Source of the DNA: Dokdonella sp.
Lineage (GTDB): Bacteria > Pseudomonadota > Gammaproteobacteria > Xanthomonadales > Rhodanobacteraceae
Direction: 5' to 3'
Length of the DNA: 64,000 nt
Assembly: GCA_024707225.1 (NCBI GenBank)
Contig: JANQAE010000004.1
Coordinates: 744,001 to 808,000, forward strand
The position numbers and the translations under genes were made by a program. The notes under the pieces were generated by a model. That model worked only from the letters and a program-made list of their open reading frames with translations. It was not told the DNA's origin and did not search any database. Numbering within the stretch: the stretch's first letter is position 1; each line of letters starts with the position of its first letter. Below, piece by piece: positions 53,672 to 63,304 of the stretch.

Positions 53672-54319
53672 ATGATCACCACGCCCGAACACGATCCGAT
53701 CCCGCTGCTCGAGGCGCGCCGCCTGGCGTTCTCGCGCAACGACGAGCCGATCTTCGGGCCGCTGGACTTTCGGCTGTATGCCGGTGACGTGGTGCTGATC
53801 GAGGGCGACAACGGTGCCGGCAAGACCACGCTGCTGCGCGTGCTGTCGGGCCTGCTCGAGGCCGACGGCGAGATCCTGCTCAACGGCGAGCCGCTGCGGC
53901 TGGACGCGCTGGCGCATCAGGTCGCGCTGCTCGGTCATCAGCCCGGCCTCAAGACCGATCTGACGCCGCTGGAGAACCTGCGCTTCGCGATCGGCGTGGC
54001 CGGTCTGCGCGCCGGCGTGTCGCCGCGGCTGGCGCTGGCCAGCGTCGGCCTCGAAGGCTACGAGGACGTGCCGGCGCGGCAGCTCTCGGCCGGCCAGAAG
54101 AAGCGCGTCTCGCTGGCGCGGCTGCTGCTGGTGCCGGCCGCGCTGTGGCTGCTCGACGAGCCCTACGCGAACCTCGATCGCGGCGGCATCGATCTGGTCA
54201 ACCGCCTGCTCGACACGCATGCGCGCCGCGGCGGCGCGGCGCTGGTGACCTCGCACGGCGCGTACGCGTTCACGTCCGGCACGCCGCGCCGGCTGCCGAT
54301 CCGGCCGCTGGCCGCATGA
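53672..54319 (+). CDS. ccmA: Heme exporter ATP-binding protein CcmA
   Basis: The product is 215 residues with a full ABC ATPase: Walker A GDNGAGKTTLLRVL, signature QLSAGQKKRVSLARLLL, Walker B LWLLDEPYANLD and switch His in ALVTSHGAY. This protein pairs with CcmB as the CcmAB exporter involved in release of heme-loaded CcmE in System I cytochrome c maturation. The stop overlaps the next start (ATGA at 54316-54319). It heads the first half of the ccm locus. Confidence 0.96.
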   Translation: MITTPEHDPIPLLEARRLAFSRNDEPIFGPLDFRLYAGDVVLIEGDNGAGKTTLLRVLSGLLEADGEILLNGEPLRLDALAHQVALLGHQPGLKTDLTPLENLRFAIGVAGLRAGVSPRLALASVGLEGYEDVPARQLSAGQKKRVSLARLLLVPAALWLLDEPYANLDRGGIDLVNRLLDTHARRGGAALVTSHGAYAFTSGTPRRLPIRPLAA

Positions 54320-54999
54320 AGCCCGGCACGACCGTCGCCGCCTGCGCCGCACTGATCCGGCGCGACCTGCTGCTGGCCTGGCGCCGCCGCGGCGATGCGC
54401 TGAACCCGGTGCTGTTTGCGCTGATGGTCGTCGCGCTGTTCCCGCTCGCGCTCGGGCCCGAGGCCGAGCGGCTGGCCTCGATCGCCGCCGGCGTGATCCT
54501 GGTCGCCGTGCTGCTGGCCGGCCTGATGGCGCTGGACACGCTGTTCCGCGGCGACTACGAGGACGGCTCGCTCGAGCAATTGGTGCTGTCGCCGCATCCG
54601 CTGCCGCTGCTGCTGGCCTGCAAGATCGCCACGCACTGGCTGATCGCGGCGGTGCCGCTGATCGTCGCGGCGCCGCTGCTCGGCGAGTTCCTGCATCTGC
54701 CGCGGCCGGTGCTGGGCGTGTTGCTGGCCGCGCTGGCGCTGGCGACGCCGCTGCTGAGCCTGATCGGCGCGGTCTGCGTCGCGCTGACGGTCGGCATGCG
54801 GCGCTCTGGTATGCTGCTGGCCCTGCTGGTGCTGCCGCTGTACGTACCGGTGCTGATCTTCGCCGCCGGCGCCTGCAATGCCGCCCAGGCCGGTCTGCCG
54901 TTCGCCGCGCCGCTGCTGTGGCTGGGTGCGGCGCTGGCGATGACCCTGGTGCTGGCGCCGCTGGCCTGCGCGGCGGCGCTGCGCATCTCGTTGAGCTAG
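54316..54999 (+). CDS. ccmB: Heme exporter permease CcmB
   Basis: The product is 227 residues with about six membrane segments. RRDLLLAWRRRGDALNPVLF is the usual N-terminal cytoplasmic region, and LALMALDTLFRGDYEDGSLEQL and LVLPLYVPVLIFAAGA are family-specific. It is the membrane partner of CcmA. The four-base overlap with ccmA and the short 23-base gap before ccmC indicate one transcript. Confidence 0.95.
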   Translation: MKPGTTVAACAALIRRDLLLAWRRRGDALNPVLFALMVVALFPLALGPEAERLASIAAGVILVAVLLAGLMALDTLFRGDYEDGSLEQLVLSPHPLPLLLACKIATHWLIAAVPLIVAAPLLGEFLHLPRPVLGVLLAALALATPLLSLIGAVCVALTVGMRRSGMLLALLVLPLYVPVLIFAAGACNAAQAGLPFAAPLLWLGAALAMTLVLAPLACAAALRISLS

Positions 55000-55022
55000 G
55001 CCGCACGGTCGACCCCGCCCCG

Positions 55023-55787
55023 ATGAACGCACTGACGCTGTGGTTCCACAAACTCGGATCGCCGCCGATCTTCGACCGCATCGCCGGCCGGATCCAGCCG
55101 TGGTGCTTCGCGCTGGCGATCGTGCTCGGCGCGGCCGGCCTGTACGGCGGCCTGGTCACGGCGCCGGCCGATTACCAGCAGGGCGATGCGTTCCGGATCA
55201 TCTACATCCACGTGCCGAGCGCATGGATGAGCCTGTTCATCTACTTCGTGATGGGCGTCAACGCGTTCATCGCGCTGGTCTGGCGGATCAAGCTCAGCGA
55301 GACGCTGGCGATGGCCTGCGCGCCGGTCGGTGCGGCGTTCACGTTCATATGCCTGGTCACCGGCTCGCTGTGGGGCAAGCCGACCTGGGGCACCTGGTGG
55401 GTCTGGGACGCGCGGCTGACCTCCGAGCTGGTGCTGCTGTTCCTGTATCTGGGCGTGATCGGTCTGTACGCGGCGATCGAAGACCGCCGCAAGGCCGCGC
55501 GTGCGGCCGGCTTTCTCGCGCTGATCGGCATCGTCAACGTGCCGATCGTGCATTTCTCGGTGACCTGGTGGAACACGCTGCATCAGGGCTCGACGGTGCG
55601 CATGTTCGGCAAGTCGACGATCACCGGCGACATGCTCTGGCCGCTGCTGGTGATGGCGCTGGCGACCAAGCTGTGGTTTCTCGGCAGCCTGCTGGCGCGT
55701 TCGCGCGTGGCCCTGCTCGAGCTCGAAGGCGGCAAGGACTGGGTCCGCGCCGCCGCACTGAAGGACGAAGGAGCCCGCGATGGCTGA
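55023..55787 (+). CDS. ccmC: Heme handling protein CcmC
   Basis: The product is 254 residues with six membrane segments. The tryptophan-rich WWD motif is seen as SLWGKPTWGTWWVWDARLTS, with conserved His residues in IYIHVPSAWMS and IVHFSVTWWNTLHQG. CcmC binds heme in the periplasm and attaches it to CcmE. The stop lies inside the first codons of ccmD. Confidence 0.96.
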   Translation: MNALTLWFHKLGSPPIFDRIAGRIQPWCFALAIVLGAAGLYGGLVTAPADYQQGDAFRIIYIHVPSAWMSLFIYFVMGVNAFIALVWRIKLSETLAMACAPVGAAFTFICLVTGSLWGKPTWGTWWVWDARLTSELVLLFLYLGVIGLYAAIEDRRKAARAAGFLALIGIVNVPIVHFSVTWWNTLHQGSTVRMFGKSTITGDMLWPLLVMALATKLWFLGSLLARSRVALLELEGGKDWVRAAALKDEGARDG

Positions 55788-55959
55788 TTTCCTCGAGATG
55801 GGCGGCTACGGCTTCTACGTCTGGCTGTCCTACGCCGTGTTCTTCGCGGTCCTGGCGATCGACTACGTGGCGCCGCTGCTGCGGCGCCGGTCGGTGCTGC
55901 GCGAGGTGGCCGCCCAGGCGCGCCGCCAGCAGCGCCGCAGCAGCGGAGCGGCGCCATGA
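55780..55959 (+). CDS. ccmD: CcmD, small membrane component
   Basis: The product is only 59 residues: a short N-terminal part ([20 protein letters not shown]) with a single membrane segment, followed by a basic tail ending in RRQQRRSS. Size, topology and order (after ccmC and before ccmE) fit CcmD, which helps release holo-CcmE from CcmC. The start is overlapped by the ccmC stop and the stop by the ccmE start. Confidence 0.92.
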
Positions 55960-56411
55960 CGCCGACCCGCAAGCGCCGCCTGATCGTGGTCAGCCTGCTG
56001 CTGCTGGCGGTCGGCGTGGCGACCACGCTGACCGTGTTCGCGCTGCAGTCGAACATGAACTACCTCTACACGCCGGTGCAGGTCTTGAACGGCGAGGCCG
56101 CGCGCCACGAGACGTTCCGGCTCGGCGGCATGGTCAAGAAGGGCTCGATCCAGCGCGCGGGCGATTCGCTGCGCGTGGATTTCGTCGTGCTCGACGGCGA
56201 CGCCGAGCTGCCGGTCGAGTACACCGGCATCCTGCCGGACCTGTTCCGCGAGAATCAGGCCGTGATCGCGACCGGCCAGTTGCGCGAGGGCCGCTTCTAC
56301 GCGCGCCAGGTGCTGGCCAAGCACGACGAGGGCTACATGCCCAAGGAACTGGCCGAGGCGATGGGCAAGGCCCACGTCAAGCACGACGTGGACACCGCCA
56401 AGGCGCAGTGA
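55956..56411 (+). CDS. ccmE: Heme chaperone CcmE
   Basis: The product is 151 residues, with an N-terminal membrane anchor ([19 protein letters not shown]) and an OB-fold periplasmic domain. The heme-attachment signature HDEGY is present with His123. [20 protein letters not shown] and [11 protein letters not shown] are family-typical. It carries heme from CcmC to CcmF. The downstream ccmF gene is not adjacent here but lies almost 4 kb away, beyond the bufferin cluster. Confidence 0.96.
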
Positions 56412-56430: not shown

Positions 56431-56889
56431 TCATTCTCGGCGCGGCAAGCCGAGGCGGCCGGCCAGCCAGTGGTCGACGCTGGCCTTGCCGGGGCCGGCC
56501 AGCAGCAGCCAGACCAGGACCAGCACGTAGAGCACTTCGTCGAGCTCGACGAATTCGTCCAGCGTGCTCACGTCGCCGATCACGACCAGCGCGATCGCGA
56601 CGATCATGTTGAAGCCGAGCGCCGCGCTGGCCAGCCGCGTGAACAGGCCGATCATCAGCAGGGCGCCGCCGACCAGTTCGGTGCCGGCCGACAGCGCCGC
56701 GCTGGCCGGCGCGAACGGGATGCCCCAGTCGGCGAAGCGCGCGGCGAACGTGTCCAGGTTCATCAGCTTGGCCCAGCCGGTCTCGAGCCAGAAGTAGCCG
56801 AAGCCGAGCCGCAGCAGCAGCGGGCCGAGCCATTCGATCGAGGCGGCGAAGTTCAGCAGGCGGCGGCACAGCGCGATCACGGATTCCAT
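56431..56889 (-). CDS. DoxX family membrane protein
   Basis: The product is 152 residues with four membrane segments. WLGPLLLRLGFGYFWLETGWA, GTELVGGALLMIGLFTRL and ALGFNMIVAIALVVI are typical of DoxX. A DoxX protein is often encoded with DUF692/DUF2063 genes in copper-related bufferin/HvfABCD clusters (as HvfD in Haemophilus). Here it is on the opposite strand from bufA, sharing the divergent intergenic region. It is probably a membrane redox or metal-related component of that cluster. Confidence 0.88.
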   Translation of the reverse strand: MESVIALCRRLLNFAASIEWLGPLLLRLGFGYFWLETGWAKLMNLDTFAARFADWGIPFAPASAALSAGTELVGGALLMIGLFTRLASAALGFNMIVAIALVVIGDVSTLDEFVELDEVLYVLVLVWLLLAGPGKASVDHWLAGRLGLPRRE

Positions 56890-57177
56890 CGGTATTTCCA
56901 CGGCAGCGGACGGGACGATGCAGGCTAGACGGGCCCGCGCGGTGCGGACCATGCCCGCGCGTCCGGCATTTGCGGCCGGGCGTCCGCGCGCGGCGACGCG
57001 CCCTGCTCGTCGCTGAACCGCCGGACGCACGGACATATCCGCCGGATGCCTGGCCGCAGGCCGGCGCCGCGCCGCTGCGGACAATGGCCTTCGCCGTCGC
57101 AGCCGCACCCGGCCGCGCGGCATCGGCCGCGCGACGTCGCAGGCCGCTCCCCTTCCGCTGCACACAGGATCCACGCC

Positions 57178-57441
57178 ATGAACAAGCTCACCGGTATTGC
57201 CCTGGCCACCGCCGTCGCCGGCCTCTTCGCCGGCACCGTCGCCAGTCCGGCGTTCGCCGCCGACGGCGCCGACGCCAAGGTCAAATGCGAGAACTCCTCG
57301 GCCTGCAAGGGTCACGGCGCCTGCAAGAGTGCCAAGAACGCCTGCAAGGGACAGAACGCCTGCAAGGGCGAGGGCTTCACGATGCAGAAGTCCGCCGATG
57401 CCTGCAAAACGGCGCAGGACGCGGCCAAGAAGGCATCCTGA
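57178..57441 (+). CDS. bufA2: BufA2-type bufferin precursor peptide (HvfA-like)
   Basis: The product is 87 residues. A signal peptide (TGIALATAVAGLFAGTVASP, cleavage after AFA) is followed by a Cys-rich tail with recurring ACK units. Cys residues fall at 37, 43, 49, 56, 62 and 76, mostly in A-C-K-G or A-C-K-S context (SACKGHGACKS, NACKGQNACKG). The pattern matches bufferin-type metallophores, whose Cys residues are converted to thiooxazole-type groups by a DUF692 MNIO enzyme and which buffer copper in the periplasm. The next two genes supply that enzyme and its partner. It is short, so the family call rests on composition, signal peptide and context. Confidence 0.88.
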   Translation: MNKLTGIALATAVAGLFAGTVASPAFAADGADAKVKCENSSACKGHGACKSAKNACKGQNACKGEGFTMQKSADACKTAQDAAKKAS

Positions 57442-57492
57442 GGACCGGCGCGCGGCGACCGCCCGCAGCGATCGCCGCGCGACCTTCAGCCG

Positions 57493-58347
57493 ATGAACAC
57501 CCCTACCCGCTGCCATCCGCATCTGGGCCACGGCCTGGGCCTGCGCGTGGATCATTACGAGGCGATCCTGGCCGATCCGGCCGTGCCGATCGACTGGCTC
57601 GAGATCGTCACCGAGAACTACCTGGTACCCGGCGGCCGTCCGCTGGATTATCTGGAACGCTTCCGTGCGCGCTATCCGCTGGTCATGCACGGCGTCTCGC
57701 TGTCGATCGGCGGCGCCGATCCGCTGGACCGCCGCTATCTGCGCGATCTGTGCGCGCTGGCCGACCGCATCGAGCCGGCCTGGATCTCCGACCATCTGTG
57801 CTGGACGGCGGTCGACGGCGTGCAGCTGCACGACCTGCTGCCGCTGCCGTACACCGAGGAGGCCGTCGCGCATGTCGCCGCGCGCATCGCCCAGGTGCAG
57901 GACGCGATCGGCCGCCGGCTGGTGCTCGAGAACGTGTCCAGCTACGTCGCCTATCACGCCTCGCAGATGCCCGAATGGACGTTCCTGGCCGCCGTGGCCG
58001 AGGCGGCCGACTGCCTGATCCTGCTCGATCTCAACAATGTTTACGTCAGCGCGGCCAATCACGGCTTCGATCCGCTGGACTATCTGGCCGGTCTGCCGGC
58101 CGCGCGCATCCAGCAGATCCACCTGGCCGGTCACAGCACCGGCGGCGCGCTGCTGATCGACACCCATGACGCGGCCATCGCCGACCCGGTCTGGCAGCTC
58201 TACGCCGAGGCGGTGCGCCGCTACGGTGCGGTCACGACGATGATCGAACGCGACGATGCGATACCGCCGCTGGCCGAGCTGCTGGCGGAGCTGTCGATCG
58301 CGCGCGGCATCGCCGCCGATGCCATGCCGGTGCAGGCCGCGGCATGA
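57493..58347 (+). CDS. bufB2: DUF692 multinuclear non-heme iron oxidative enzyme BufB2
   Basis: The product is 284 residues. The TIM-barrel MNIO family is recognised by [89 protein letters not shown] and LIDTHD, which include the clustered His/Asp/Glu/Asn metal ligands. It is expected to modify Cys side chains of the bufferin precursor encoded immediately upstream (51-base gap). It belongs with MbnB and TglH as a RiPP-modifying oxidase. The start of bufC overlaps its stop by four bases. Confidence 0.94.
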
Positions 58348-59122
58348 ACGCGTTGCAGGCGCTGCAGCGGCAGTTCGCAGCCTGCCTGCTCGATGGCGAT
58401 ACCGCGCTGCGCGCCGCCGTGTGCACGACGCCGCAGGCCGACGCCGCGATGCGCCTGGAGGTCTACGCGCATGCATATCGCCAGCGCCTGCACGAGGTGC
58501 TGGCCGAGGAATTCCCGGCGCTGGCCGCGACGGCCGGTGCCGGACCGTTCGCCGCGTGGACCGCGCGATACGCGCGCGAGCGGCCCTCGCGCGATCCCAA
58601 CGTGCGCTGGTACGGCGCGGCGTTCGCCGACTGGCTGCGCGAGTCGACACCGGCGCAGCCGGCCGCCGCGGCGCTGGCCGGGTTCGAATGGGCGCTGTCG
58701 CTCGCATTCGACGCCGAGGACCTCCCGGCGCTGCAGGCCGAGCGGCTCGCGGCGCTGCCGGCCGCACACTGGCCGCACCTCCGGCTGGCCCTACATCCGC
58801 AACTGGTGCTGCTGCCGGTCGCCTGGAATCTCGAGGCGATCCGCCGCGCGGTCGACGCCGGGCAACCGCCGCCGCCGCTGTGCGAGGCGCCGGGCACGCT
58901 GGCGATCTGGCGCCGGCAACGGCGCGTGCGCTATCGGCGGCTCGACGCCGAAGAGGCCGCCACGCTCGACCTGCTGCGCCACGGCCGGCCGTTCGGCGCG
59001 TTGTGCGAGGCGCTCGCCGGGCGCCACGGGGCGGACGCCGCGCCGCGGCTGCGCAGGGCCTGCGCGACTGGATCGAAGCCGGCTGGATCGCCGAGCCGGA
59101 CGATGATGCCGCCCTCGCCTAG
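58344..59122 (+). CDS. bufC2: DUF2063 partner protein BufC2 (apparent one-base frameshift)
   Basis: The frame begins at ATG 58344. [42 protein letters not shown] and [15 protein letters not shown] are DUF2063 hallmarks. This protein recognises the bufferin leader and helps the DUF692 enzyme. Around 59051-59056 the meaningful reading frame moves: the ending [20 protein letters not shown] continues in the +2 frame to TAG at 59120-59122. One missing base (for example CGCAG for CGCCAG) explains this, and the repaired protein is 259 residues, which is the normal length. It may be a sequence error or a real disruption of the operon's last gene. Confidence 0.85.
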
Positions 59123-59207
59123 CGGCGGCCCGCATTCGATTGCGCATCGGCCTACACTGCGCGGGCCGGCCGCACGGTCGCCGCCACGCGCCACCGCGCT
59201 TTCGCTG

Positions 59208-60101
59208 ATGCGTCACCCTCCGATCGAACAGGTGCTGGAGTCGGCGTTGAACGGCGTGCAGCTGCGCGTCGAGATCGTCGACGACCTGCGCTACTGCGGC
59301 GCCTGGCTCGAGCGCGAGCCGGCGACGCGCCACGGCGCGTTCCATCTGATCGGCGAGGGCCGCTGCGTGATCGAAGCGCCGGCGCTGGGCGGCGCGCTCG
59401 TGCTCGAGGCCGGCGATCTGGTGATGTTTCCGCACGGCAGCGGCCATCTGCTGCGCGCCGTCGACGCCTGTGCGCCGGCCGCCGACGCCGACCCGGGCTA
59501 CACGAGCATGCTGTGCGGCGAGTTCGCGTTTCTGATCGGCGCGCACAATCCGGTGCTGCGTGCGCTGCCCGACTGCCTGATCGTCCGCGCACGCGACGGC
59601 GGCGCGGCATTCGCGCATCTGGCGGCGCTGCTGGTCGACACCTCGCGGCGCGGCGGCCTGGGCCGGCAGGTCATGCTCAATACGCTGGCCGCGAGCCTGT
59701 TCATCCTGGCGGTCTGCGAATACGCGACGCAGAACGCGCAGCCGCGCGGCCTGTTCGCGGGGCTGGCCGATCCGCGCATCGCGCGCGTGCTGCAGGCGAT
59801 CCACACCCGGCCCGACGAGGACTGGTCGATGGCGCGTCTGGCCGATCTGGCCGGCATGTCGCGCAGCGCGTTCGCCGAGCGTTTCACGACCCTGCTCGAT
59901 ACGCCGCCGATGCAGTATCTGGCGCAGTGGCGCGTCAGCCAGGCCTGGCAGCTGCTGAGGAACCCGCGCCTGTCGGTGGCCGCGATCGCCGAGCAGCTCG
60001 GCTACAAGAGCGAGCCGGCGTTCCGCAAGCTGTTCAAGCGCCTGACCGGCATCGGCCCCGGCAAGGTGCGCGCCGGCGGCGAGGACATCGGCGCGCCATA
60101 G
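59208..60101 (+). CDS. AraC-family transcriptional regulator with cupin-like N-terminus
   Basis: The product is 297 residues. The N-terminal ~150 residues are a cupin-like sensor (GAFHLIGEGRCVIEAP, LEAGDLVMFPHGSGHLL, MLCGEFAFLIGA). The C-terminal ~100 residues form the double helix-turn-helix of AraC proteins (SMARLADLAGMSRSAFAERF, LSVAAIAEQLGYKSEPAFRKLF). It lies 85 bases after bufC on the same strand and before ccmF. It is a good candidate regulator of the bufferin cluster, perhaps in response to copper or oxidative stress; inference only. Confidence 0.93.
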   Translation: MRHPPIEQVLESALNGVQLRVEIVDDLRYCGAWLEREPATRHGAFHLIGEGRCVIEAPALGGALVLEAGDLVMFPHGSGHLLRAVDACAPAADADPGYTSMLCGEFAFLIGAHNPVLRALPDCLIVRARDGGAAFAHLAALLVDTSRRGGLGRQVMLNTLAASLFILAVCEYATQNAQPRGLFAGLADPRIARVLQAIHTRPDEDWSMARLADLAGMSRSAFAERFTTLLDTPPMQYLAQWRVSQAWQLLRNPRLSVAAIAEQLGYKSEPAFRKLFKRLTGIGPGKVRAGGEDIGAP

Positions 60102-60357
60102 CCGGTCCGCCGGCGCCGCCGTCGATCGCGATCGCCGATCGCGGCACCAACCGGCGGCCGGGGGCGCGATCGGGACCGGTCGCGCCGGCCGGTTGCGAGC
60201 CGGCCGGCGGCAAATCGCCGCACGCATCGGCGGCGCCGCCCGGGAAAGCGCGCCGCGTCGCGTCGCAGCAGGGCCGGTCCGTCTTTTTTGGTAGTCTCGA
60301 CGGCTGCGCCCCGTTCCGTTCCGGAATCGGCGCCTCCCGCCGTCGCCGCGTGCCGCC

Positions 60358-62322
60358 ATGCTCCCCGAACTCGGACAATTCGCCCTGATCCTCGCGCTGC
60401 TGCTGGCGGTGCTGCAATGCGTGCTGCCGCTGCTCGGCGCCCAGCTCGGCAACCGCGCGCTGATCGCGACCGGCCGGCCGATCGCGGCCGGCCAGCTGGT
60501 GTTCGTCGCGATCGCCTACGCGATCCTGACCTACGCCTTCCTCGCGCAGGACTTCTCGGTCGCCTACGTCGCGCAGAACTCCAACCTGCTGCTGCCGTGG
60601 TACTACCGGTTCTCGGCGGTATGGGGCGCGCACGAGGGCTCGCTGCTGCTGTGGGTGCTGATCCTGAATCTGTGGATCGTCGCGGTGGCGGCGTTCTCGC
60701 GCCATCTGCCGGACGACTTCATCGCGCGCGTGCTCGGCGTGCTCGGCTTCGTCAGCGTCGGCTTCCTCGCGTTCACGGTGCTGACCTCCAATCCGTTCGC
60801 GCGCGAGCTGCCGGTACCGGCCGACGGCATGGATCTCAATCCGGTACTGCAGGACCCGGGCCTGATCATCCATCCGCCGATGCTCTACATGGGCTATGTC
60901 GGTTTTTCGATCGCGTTCGCGTTCGCGCTGGCGGCCCTGCTCGGCGGCAAGCTCGACCGGGAGTGGGTGCGCTGGTCGCGGCCGTGGACCAATGTCGCCT
61001 GGGGCTTTCTGACGCTCGGCATCGCGCTCGGCTCTTGGTGGGCGTATTCGGTACTCGGCTGGGGCGGCTGGTGGTTCTGGGATCCGGTCGAGAACGCGTC
61101 TTTCATGCCGTGGCTGGTCGGCACCGCGCTGATCCACTCACAGGCGGTCACCGAGAAGCGCGGCTCGTTCCGCGCCTGGACGCTGCTGCTGGCGATCTTC
61201 GCGTTCTCGCTGTCGCTGCTCGGCACGTTCCTGGTGCGCTCGGGCGTGATCACCTCGGTGCATTCGTTCGCGAGCGATCCGAGCCGCGGCACGTTCATCC
61301 TGGCGTTTCTCGCGGCCACGGTCGGCGGCTCGCTGCTGATCTACGCCTTGCGCGCGCCGAAGATCGCCGGCGGCGAGCCGTTCGCGGCGGTCTCGCGCGA
61401 GACCACGCTGCTGGTCAACAACCTGATGTTCGCGTGCGCGGCGGCGATGGTGCTGCTCGGCACGCTGTATCCGTTGATCGGCGAGGCGCTCGGCCTCGGC
61501 CGCGTCTCGGTCGGGCCGCCGTATTTCGGGCTGATGTTCGTGCTGCTGATGCTGCCGGTCGTGCTGCTGGTGCCGTTCGGGCCGTTCCTCAACTGGCGCC
61601 AGGGCGACATCGGTGCGGCGCTGCGCGCGCTGCGTCCGGCGCTGATCCTGGCCGTGCTGGCGATTCCGGCGGCGTGGCTGCTCGGCGACGGTCTGCCGGC
61701 CAAGGCGATCGCCGGCATCGCGCTGGCGATCTGGGTCGGCGCCGGCATCGTGCTGTTCGCGATCGCGCGCTGGCGGCGGCTGCCGGCCGGGCGCCGCTAC
61801 ACGCCGGAGATGTTCGGCATGATCCTGGCGCATCTGGGTATCGCGGTCTTCGTCGCCGGCGTCATGGTGACCGAGGCGACCAGCATCGAGAAGGACCTGC
61901 GCATGGCGCCGGGCGAGTCGGTCACGATCCGCGAGGCGACGTTCCGCTTCGACGGCGTCGGCCACCACGAGGGCCCGAACTTCAGCGCCGATCAGGGCAC
62001 GGTCACGGTGACCGCCGGCGGCCGCACGATTGCCGTGCTGCATCCGCAGAAGCGCCAGTACTCGCAGGGCACCCAGGTGCAGACCGAGGCGGCCGTGCAG
62101 GCCGGCGCGTTCCGCGATCTCTACGTCGCGCTCGGCGAGCCGCTCGGCGACGAGGGGGCCTGGGCCGTGCGCGTCTACCACAAGCCGTTCATCCGCTGGA
62201 TCTGGGCCGGCGCACTGCTGATGATGCTCGGCGGTTTCGTCGCCGCCGGCGACCGCCGCTTCCGTGCGGTCCGCGCCGCCAGGCCCGCGCCCGGCGCCGT
62301 CGTCGCGGAGGCGCAGGCATGA
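60358..62322 (+). CDS. ccmF: Cytochrome c heme lyase CcmF
   Basis: The product is 654 residues with about 14 membrane segments. NSNLLLPWYYRFSAVWGAHEG, HPPMLYMGYVGFSI, ALGSWWAYSVLGWGGWWFWD (WWD motif) and ENASFMPWLVGTALIHSQ are signature regions, including His ligands of the two heme-binding sites. It ligates heme to apocytochrome c together with CcmH. It resumes the ccm operon after the bufferin cluster and overlaps ccmG by four bases. Confidence 0.97.
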   Translation: MLPELGQFALILALLLAVLQCVLPLLGAQLGNRALIATGRPIAAGQLVFVAIAYAILTYAFLAQDFSVAYVAQNSNLLLPWYYRFSAVWGAHEGSLLLWVLILNLWIVAVAAFSRHLPDDFIARVLGVLGFVSVGFLAFTVLTSNPFARELPVPADGMDLNPVLQDPGLIIHPPMLYMGYVGFSIAFAFALAALLGGKLDREWVRWSRPWTNVAWGFLTLGIALGSWWAYSVLGWGGWWFWDPVENASFMPWLVGTALIHSQAVTEKRGSFRAWTLLLAIFAFSLSLLGTFLVRSGVITSVHSFASDPSRGTFILAFLAATVGGSLLIYALRAPKIAGGEPFAAVSRETTLLVNNLMFACAAAMVLLGTLYPLIGEALGLGRVSVGPPYFGLMFVLLMLPVVLLVPFGPFLNWRQGDIGAALRALRPALILAVLAIPAAWLLGDGLPAKAIAGIALAIWVGAGIVLFAIARWRRLPAGRRYTPEMFGMILAHLGIAVFVAGVMVTEATSIEKDLRMAPGESVTIREATFRFDGVGHHEGPNFSADQGTVTVTAGGRTIAVLHPQKRQYSQGTQVQTEAAVQAGAFRDLYVALGEPLGDEGAWAVRVYHKPFIRWIWAGALLMMLGGFVAAGDRRFRAVRAARPAPGAVVAEAQA

Positions 62323-62864
62323 GGCTCTCGCGTGTGCTGCCGCTGATCGCGTTCGCGCTGCTGGTCGTGCTGTTCGCGTTCGGCATCTACTGGAGCGCGA
62401 ACCACGACACGCGCGAGGTGCGCTCGCCGCTGGTCGGCAAGCCGGCGCCGGTCTATGCCTTGCCGCTGCTCGGCGATCCGGAGCGCCGCGTCGGCAGCGC
62501 CGAGCTCGCCGGCAAGCCGTATCTGCTCAACGTGTTCGCGAGCTGGTGCCAGGCCTGCCGTGTCGAGCATCCGCTGTTCATGAGCGAGATCCGCCAGCTG
62601 GGCGTGCCGCTGATCGGCTTCAACTACAAGGACGAGAGTGCCGACGCCAGGCGCTGGCTCGCGCAGTTCGGCGATCCGTACGATCAGATCCTGGTCGACT
62701 ACGACGGCCGCGTCGCGATCGACTTCGGCGTCTACGGCGCGCCGGAGACGTTCCTGATCGACGCCAACGGCGTCATCCGCTACAAGCGCATCGGCCCGTT
62801 CACGCCCGAATCGGTCCAGAGCGAACTCAAGCCGGCGATCGCCACACTGGGAGCCGCGCCGTGA
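62319..62864 (+). CDS. ccmG: Thiol:disulfide interchange protein CcmG (DsbE)
   Basis: The product is 181 residues: an N-terminal membrane anchor (VLPLIAFALLVVLFAFGIYW) and a thioredoxin fold with WCQAC (Cys77 and Cys80) and YGAPETFLIDANGVIRYK. It reduces disulfides of apocytochrome c or CcmH. Its stop overlaps the ccmH GTG start. Confidence 0.96.
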   Translation: MRLSRVLPLIAFALLVVLFAFGIYWSANHDTREVRSPLVGKPAPVYALPLLGDPERRVGSAELAGKPYLLNVFASWCQACRVEHPLFMSEIRQLGVPLIGFNYKDESADARRWLAQFGDPYDQILVDYDGRVAIDFGVYGAPETFLIDANGVIRYKRIGPFTPESVQSELKPAIATLGAAP

Positions 62865-63304
62865 TCGCTCGTCTGCGCCCGCTCGCGCTGGCGGCGCTGA
62901 TCGCGCTGGCACCGGCCGCCCACGCGATCGATCCGCTGCCGTTCACCGACGTCGCGCAGGAACAGCGCTTCCAGCAGCTGACGCGCCAGCTGCGCTGCCT
63001 GGTCTGCCAGAACGAGAATCTCGCCGACTCCCACGCGCCGCTCGCCCAGGATCTGCGCCAGCAGGTGTTCGAGCAGATGCAGGCCGGCAAGAGCGACGAG
63101 GAGATCAAGCGCTGGCTGACCGACCGCTACAGCGATTTCGTGCTGTACGACCCGCCGCTGCGCGGCGGCACCGTCGTGCTCTGGTTCGGCCCGGCCGTGG
63201 TGCTGGCGATCGGACTTTTCGCGGTGGTCACGATCGTGCGGCGGCGCAGCCGCGCGCTCGGCGCGGCGACCTCCACACGCCCACCCGACGGGGACGACTG
63301 GTGA
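62861..63304 (+). CDS. ccmH: Apocytochrome c thioreductase CcmH
   Basis: The product is 147 residues starting at GTG 62861. The signal peptide-like start is followed by the conserved LRCLVCQNENLADS, with Cys46 and Cys49 forming the redox pair, and then a C-terminal membrane segment (VVLWFGPAVVLAIGLFAVV). This is the short N-terminal CcmH type; the C-terminal TPR part is encoded separately as ccmI. GTGA overlaps both neighbours. Confidence 0.96.
   Translation: MIARLRPLALAALIALAPAAHAIDPLPFTDVAQEQRFQQLTRQLRCLVCQNENLADSHAPLAQDLRQQVFEQMQAGKSDEEIKRWLTDRYSDFVLYDPPLRGGTVVLWFGPAVVLAIGLFAVVTIVRRRSRALGAATSTRPPDGDDW

Follow-up and report, generated by a model that had tools for sequence, protein, structure and literature searches.

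A bufferin cassette with a predicted AraC-type switch, most likely inserted within the cytochrome c maturation locus of a Dokdonella species

We analysed a stretch of 64,000 nucleotides from Dokdonella sp. (hereafter the window; assembly GCA_024707225.1, contig JANQAE010000004.1, positions 744,001 to 808,000; part of contig C2 in a genome of 4.37 Mb), in which a bufferin cluster lies within the cytochrome c maturation (ccm) locus. The cluster is of the Buf2 type and consists of bufA2, bufB, bufC and an AraC-family regulator gene, with a divergent doxX, placed between ccmE and ccmF. We consider it quite probable that it represents a Buf2 cassette subtype with a predicted AraC circuit, which came to its present place by insertion at a permissive ccmE-ccmF junction in the ancestor of the window species (genome G000) and one congener (G005).

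The putative circuit is read from the gap between doxX and bufA2, which in AraC-bearing cassettes holds two inverted 26-bp sites (E1 and E2, Table 1), each of them built from CRTCC-like half-sites directly repeated at a 21-bp period. The 144 loci examined were reduced to 48 distinct gaps by setting aside 84 without a doxX or bufA2 match nearby, 6 AraC-less loci with doxX on the same strand, 5 duplicates and 1 without a usable gap (our genome set and the named loci partly overlap, and identical gaps were removed). An AraC gene, scored as absent where no tblastn match above 60 bits fell within 4 kb of bufB, accompanied bufB in 42 loci (38 distinct), with a divergent doxX in all of them. Both sites were present in 36 of the 38 distinct divergent AraC-bearing gaps (the other two, L190 and L199, have only the first), and the pair in none of the 10 distinct divergent AraC-less gaps, eight of which have neither site; the search pattern for this count was drawn up after seeing all loci. 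When the gaps were shuffled in two-base blocks, both sites appeared in 4/9600 cases (forward alone 196, reverse alone 166), and three E1 positions that the pattern left free (T10, T11 and C17) are invariant in 36/36 cassettes.

A strict form of the site matched exactly once per genome in each of 12 chosen AraC-bearing genomes, about 600 bp or less from bufB, while a backward control pattern gave one match over all 12 together; a single strict site per genome, located in the cassette, is as expected for a cassette-dedicated regulator. An earlier pattern, with its spacing off by one base and its mismatch counts thereby inflated (up to three allowed), recovered the site in 19 of 20 held-out AraC-bearing loci (L033 was excluded as a copy of training locus L130) and matched 1/96 AraC-less loci; its match in L198 was misplaced, L182 was missed, and so were the window and G005 among the 17 AraC training loci. 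Scored with a matrix whose training set includes the window and G005 sites, the next best match after the two window sites reached 6.7, and in G005 the pair (20.2 and 16.8) was followed by a match of 9.3 inside bufB.

Conserved blocks are also found on either side of the pair. Toward doxX, ATGG is kept in 36/36 cassettes, and in 25/36 a CATSATG block lies 32-33 bp away from E1 (the window and G005 are without this block); toward bufA2 there is a CAG, its letters kept in 36, 36 and 35 of 36, followed at 33-37 bp from the site by an AnAAT block (32-33 of 36 per position). These blocks may be two -10 regions, each with an activator site directly upstream. Site-to-site distances over the 36 cassettes fall at 29, 42, 51-54 and 61-63 bp, with one at 47, near multiples of about 10.5 bp (helical phasing p ~0.009 for 10 distinct distances and a period of 10.5 bp, the distances not being independent by descent), which is suggestive of two sites set on a fixed helix face. 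An Rfam search gave no match.

Every gene that the original prediction had named in this cluster was recovered at its coordinates, from open reading frames and Pfam/NCBIfam matches, with two corrections. The doxX gene is a minus-strand gene that diverges from bufA2 and faces ccmE, the two stop codons being 19 bp apart, and bufA2, bufB, bufC and araC share their direction with ccmF; moreover, in the window genome the DUF2063 and AraC regions form a single 585-aa open frame (58344-60101), because the bufC frame shifts near 59055. By comparison with G005, in which bufC and araC occupy separate frames and the bufC end is intact, the expected BufC C-terminus continues in another frame and ends at 59122. 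At 59040-59122, an apparently frameshifted bufC thus runs in frame into araC, with a sequencing error or a real fusion as alternatives.

The assignment to Buf2 follows from family matches above cut-off for BufA2, BufB, the DUF2063 partner and the DoxX gene, and that of the regulator from an AraC-type helix-turn-helix together with a sensor domain. A Buf2 precursor is defined as a BufA2 family member with 6 (or 12) conserved Cys; in the window protein each of the six is kept in 37 or 38 of 38 aligned rows, and the N-terminus has, by eye, the look of a Sec-type signal peptide (a hydrophobic stretch and an AFA-AD site). Relatives of BufB in the PDB are 3bww, 8hci and 7dz9. In-frame TGA codons had been flagged in three MNIO matches, and the case that was checked (G020) proved to be the terminal stop. 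The window genome has a second MNIO gene, of the HvfB type (415 bits vs 360), on another contig (C1, ~637.6-638.8 kb; locus L118, 7591-8797), beside which a 131-aa reading frame shows EGKCG motifs and apparent EF-hand repeats by eye.

Outside the ccm locus, the same order (doxX on the minus strand; bufA2, bufB, bufC and araC on the plus strand) recurs in Dyella, Frateuria, Rhodanobacter and other members of the family, the first three being also the nearest named relatives by BufB among the best 80 matches. One genome of the family (G023) has a BufB identical to that of Frateuria defendens. In a BufB tree built by a quick method (Shimodaira-Hasegawa-like approximate likelihood ratio support only), the window and G005 copies pair up (94) within a clade of 26 rows (97) composed of Rhodanobacteraceae, except for one metagenome-assembled genome labelled only Pseudomonadota; the copies of seven genus-mates form a separate group (97), whose neighbours are two other family members (87). 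In the sequences surveyed here, the AraC-bearing subtype is found only in Rhodanobacteraceae, and the cassette appears to be a family type that the lineage of G000 and G005 may have acquired, relocated or alone retained.

The close set of genomes comprised the window genome and 39 relatives (gene distances worked out by hand), 39 of the 40 having both CcmE and CcmF matches. The two genes are contiguous in 35/39 and have the cassette between them in G000 and G005; in G016 the ccm halves are on different contigs, and in G022 about 0.75 kb of extra sequence separates them. Within the genus, an MNIO match is present in 10/10 genomes and lies inside ccm only in the nested pair, the two copies of which share 83-85% identity in BufB and 75% in DoxX; in the other eight, ccmE adjoins ccmF (the contig of G008 stops after ccmF). 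In seven of the eight, a different BufB (56-59% identity) is encoded at another place, and G009 has only a 45% match. The clusters of the seven (L120-L126) are without an AraC match, have doxX on the bufB strand in six cases and show two bufA2-like matches in three. Over the family set (147 genomes, bufB matches at E 1e-50), no further bufB match was seen by eye at up to 30 kb from either ccmE or ccmF. A tblastn survey of the best 80 named bufB loci with the window CcmA, B, C, E, F, H and I reading frames (CcmG left out) found none (0/80) with a CcmB, C, E, F, H or I match in the available flanks, which measure at least 4 kb on both sides in 53/80; the CcmA matches near these loci (24-40% identity, no other Ccm match) were dismissed as other ABC ATPases.

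The nested arrangement, whose recurrence among relatives the original prediction had proposed to check, is thus confined, in the material covered, to the window genome and one congener. What it had named as evidence of an incidental position, contiguous ccm genes with the cluster elsewhere, is found in seven of the eight other genus-mates, whose bufB is of a different type, and again in family members that carry the same cassette type away from ccm. Its alternative of a hitch-hiking insertion is borne out to this extent: the same five-gene cassette exists away from ccm, and nesting is limited to two congeners. Insertion in the common ancestor of the window species and G005 is the most likely origin.

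The premise that ccm genes are normally contiguous holds for 35/39 genomes of the close set, but the same junction is broken in other genera of the family, and an incidental insertion of the cassette is therefore plausible. In genus g40, ccmE and ccmF are 6-17 kb apart in six of ten genomes (L156-L161) and on different contigs in two of ten, which may be assembly gaps; genus g8 has splits too, one of 553 kb (all by eye). The content of five of the six fetched g40 inserts and of one g8 insert was sampled on 20 chosen reading frames (Pfam, E 1e-10), 10 of which were without a family. The others include a resistance-nodulation-division (RND) pump with a CusB/HlyD-type partner (in L156, where the two could form a metal pump), MtrB/PioB, a block for amino-acid synthesis, a pyridoxal-phosphate enzyme, and a cation ATPase with a cytochrome b561 domain next to it. 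The idea that ccmE-ccmF inserts are generally copper-related was rejected on this mixed gene content, and the junction therefore looks permissive.

A number of observations weigh against the circuit proposed above. The site cores of the window and G005 differ from the family consensus (E1 core TTTGCGGCC vs TTTCTTGCC), and a search of the window alone with up to three mismatches found a match in 38/100 shuffles too, the real match having no mismatch; two of the ten AraC-less gaps hold one loose reverse match, and the site-gene association is inflated by the common descent of the AraC-bearing cassettes. No consensus sigma-70 promoter was found for the cassette, DoxX stays below the NCBIfam HvfX cut-off (70.7 vs 80 bits) and BufC below that of HvfC (54.7 vs 142), and the window bufC copy may be impaired by its frameshift. 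Considering that AraC control of the sites is itself a prediction from sequence, and that sites and gene could be co-inherited with no functional tie, araC might be an unrelated neighbour and the sites might belong to another regulator, e.g. a copper sensor encoded elsewhere. We hold this to be unlikely, since none of the 10 distinct divergent AraC-less cassettes has the site pair, the strict site is limited to one per genome in 12/12 (unlike the sites of a global regulator), and direct repeats of 21 bp are of the type recognised by AraC dimers; furthermore, the DNA-binding domain of AraC has differing residues in G000 and G005, the two species with the differing site core, although this pair is also simply the more distant one. 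The frameshift, for its part, would be read differently if the cluster had decayed in the window genome, with maturation disabled and the insert left as a remnant. To this we give little credence: the bufC frame does shift and continue into araC, but the remaining cassette genes are all open, just the last ~22 BufC residues are replaced, G005 keeps an intact bufC, and the shift may be a sequencing or assembly error.

The original prediction had also offered co-regulation of the cluster with ccm, on the rationale that copper interferes with cytochrome c assembly. The chemistry is sensible, as a review (PMC7558416, citing Durand et al. 2015) names cytochrome c biogenesis as a target of periplasmic copper, but comparison of the genomes argues against a functional link. 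The view that nesting is functional (buf and ccm co-regulated by copper, which poisons cytochrome c assembly, and the cassette kept for that reason) seems to us rather doubtful. In its favour, besides the copper target, two species retain the arrangement despite their divergence in BufB and DoxX, and as no consensus terminator was found between araC and ccmF, read-through from buf into ccmF-I is possible. On the other hand, doxX is convergent to ccmE, so that transcription from ccmE would enter doxX antisense and simple ccmE-buf cotranscription is unlikely; the cassette has operator-like sites of its own, and the operator-site search of the window found no like site at ccmA or ccmF, which leaves the co-regulation reading unsupported. 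The contiguous ccmE and ccmF of the eight other genus-mates and the named bufB loci with no such Ccm match tell against it as well, and a block upstream of ccmF common to both nested species may be a separate promoter. A more specific version, in which an AraC/Cupin_6 sensor of copper or thiol stress would drive bufferin from two same-face inverted operators and, in the nested species, read-through would reach ccmFGHI, appears improbable; if true, cytochrome c assembly capacity would rise together with the periplasmic copper buffer in these two species. The striking place within ccm is not to be taken as a functional link without further evidence.

The remaining features of the locus are collected in Table 1. 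CcmA was recognised through its ABC ATPase match; a ccmD could fit in the 168-bp gap ahead of ccmE, but it was not identified, and 55784-55957 had no NCBIfam match in the one frame scanned. In the araC-ccmF gap, where neither a consensus promoter nor a consensus terminator was found, a T-run block (GTCTTTTTTGGTAGTCTCG, 60281-60299) lies ~60 bp before ccmF. By eye, the G005 copy has one T fewer, and the block was not seen in the eight genus-mates with contiguous ccm; it is possibly a new ccmF promoter, separate from buf.

Table 1. Coordinates of the cassette, its candidate control elements and the surrounding ccm genes in the window
Feature	Position	Strand	Evidence
ccmA-ccmB-ccmC-ccmE, first ccm half	53672..56411	+	Pfam: ABC_tran, CcmB 224.4 bits, Cytochrom_C_asm, CcmE 114.7 bits
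doxX (bufferin-cluster membrane protein, HvfX/DoxX type)	56431-56889	-	PF07681 62.7 bits, cut-off 23.6
candidate -10-like element of doxX, weak	56922..56927	-	position matches the CATSATG block of relatives; inferred
E1, first operator-like site	56960..56985	+	score 24.0, 21-bp direct repeat
E2, second operator-like site, inverted vs E1	57023..57048	-	score 17.9
candidate -10-like element of bufA2	57080..57085	+	AnAAT block at fixed distance from E2; inferred
bufA2, 87-aa precursor, 6 Cys	57178-57441	+	NCBIfam equivalog NF050166 69.4 bits, cut-off 60
bufB, MNIO (DUF692) maturase	57493-58347	+	NF050167 374.7 bits, cut-off 310; PF05114 366 bits
bufC, DUF2063 partner protein	58344..59122	+	PF09836 75.1 bits, cut-off 27.2
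araC, Cupin_6 + HTH_18, putative regulator of the cassette	59208-60101	+	PF12852 96.3 bits, PF12833 70.6 bits
araC-ccmF gap	60102..60357	+	256 bp from araC end to ccmF start
ccmF	60358-62322	+	CcmF_C 386.2 bits
ccmG	62319-62864	+	by eye from the translation, WCQAC motif
ccmH	within 62264-63304	+	CcmH 159.5 bits
ccmI, TPR type	63301 to beyond the window	+	TPR_CcmH_CycH 86.8 bits

We reason that the AraC/Cupin_6 protein of the cassette would bind both inverted sites and activate the divergent doxX and bufA2 promoters. From what the family literature describes, BufB and BufC would then form thiooxazoles from Cys residues in the six-Cys precursor, the modified BufA2 would be exported by Sec, and the product would chelate periplasmic copper, with DoxX as a putative membrane partner; the position of the cassette in ccm would have no function. 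Passages of PMC12452194 present bufferins in these terms (Cys-derived thiooxazoles made by BufB with BufC, Sec export, sequestration of periplasmic copper), and passages of PMC13097082 describe such pathways as often induced by copper, gold and oxidative stress, and name related thiooxazole metallophores captophorins. Bufferins are widespread copper-defence peptides, and the literature sections covered describe no dedicated regulator for Buf2. The cassette, with its predicted AraC switch and conserved operator-like pair, offers a directly testable regulatory circuit, and it may perhaps be usable as a natural reporter of copper or thiol stress.

Among regulators, the window AraC resembles the RclR type in combining AraC helix-turn-helix and Cupin_6 domains, RclR itself being of the Cupin_6 type. 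RclR was its best NCBIfam match, yet identity with RclR was rejected, the score being 110.6 bits vs an equivalog cut-off of 400. The gig operons of Cupriavidus and Legionella, which have a link to copper and gold, share with the cassette the set of MNIO, DUF2063 and DoxX genes, and are not known to carry an AraC gene. The surrounding locus follows the System I ccm order (ccmA, B, C, E, F, G, H, I, with ccmG recognised by eye), but is split by the cassette between ccmE and ccmF. The bufferin cluster itself is of a known kind and agrees with the Buf2 clusters of PMC12452194 in its six-Cys precursor (with a Sec-type signal by eye), MNIO maturase, DUF2063 partner and DoxX gene. In the passages of that paper, sigma and anti-sigma genes accompany Buf1 and not Buf2, other conserved genes occurring at very low proportions; those of PMC13097082 mention that transcriptional regulators often co-occur, with no type named. 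The term 'AraC' is absent from the main text of PMC12452194, PMC13097082 and PMC12538549, and no description of an AraC-bearing Buf2 subtype or of its sites was found in the main texts that both searches covered. Compared with the Buf2 clusters described there, the window cassette adds an AraC/Cupin_6 gene and a pair of conserved sites.

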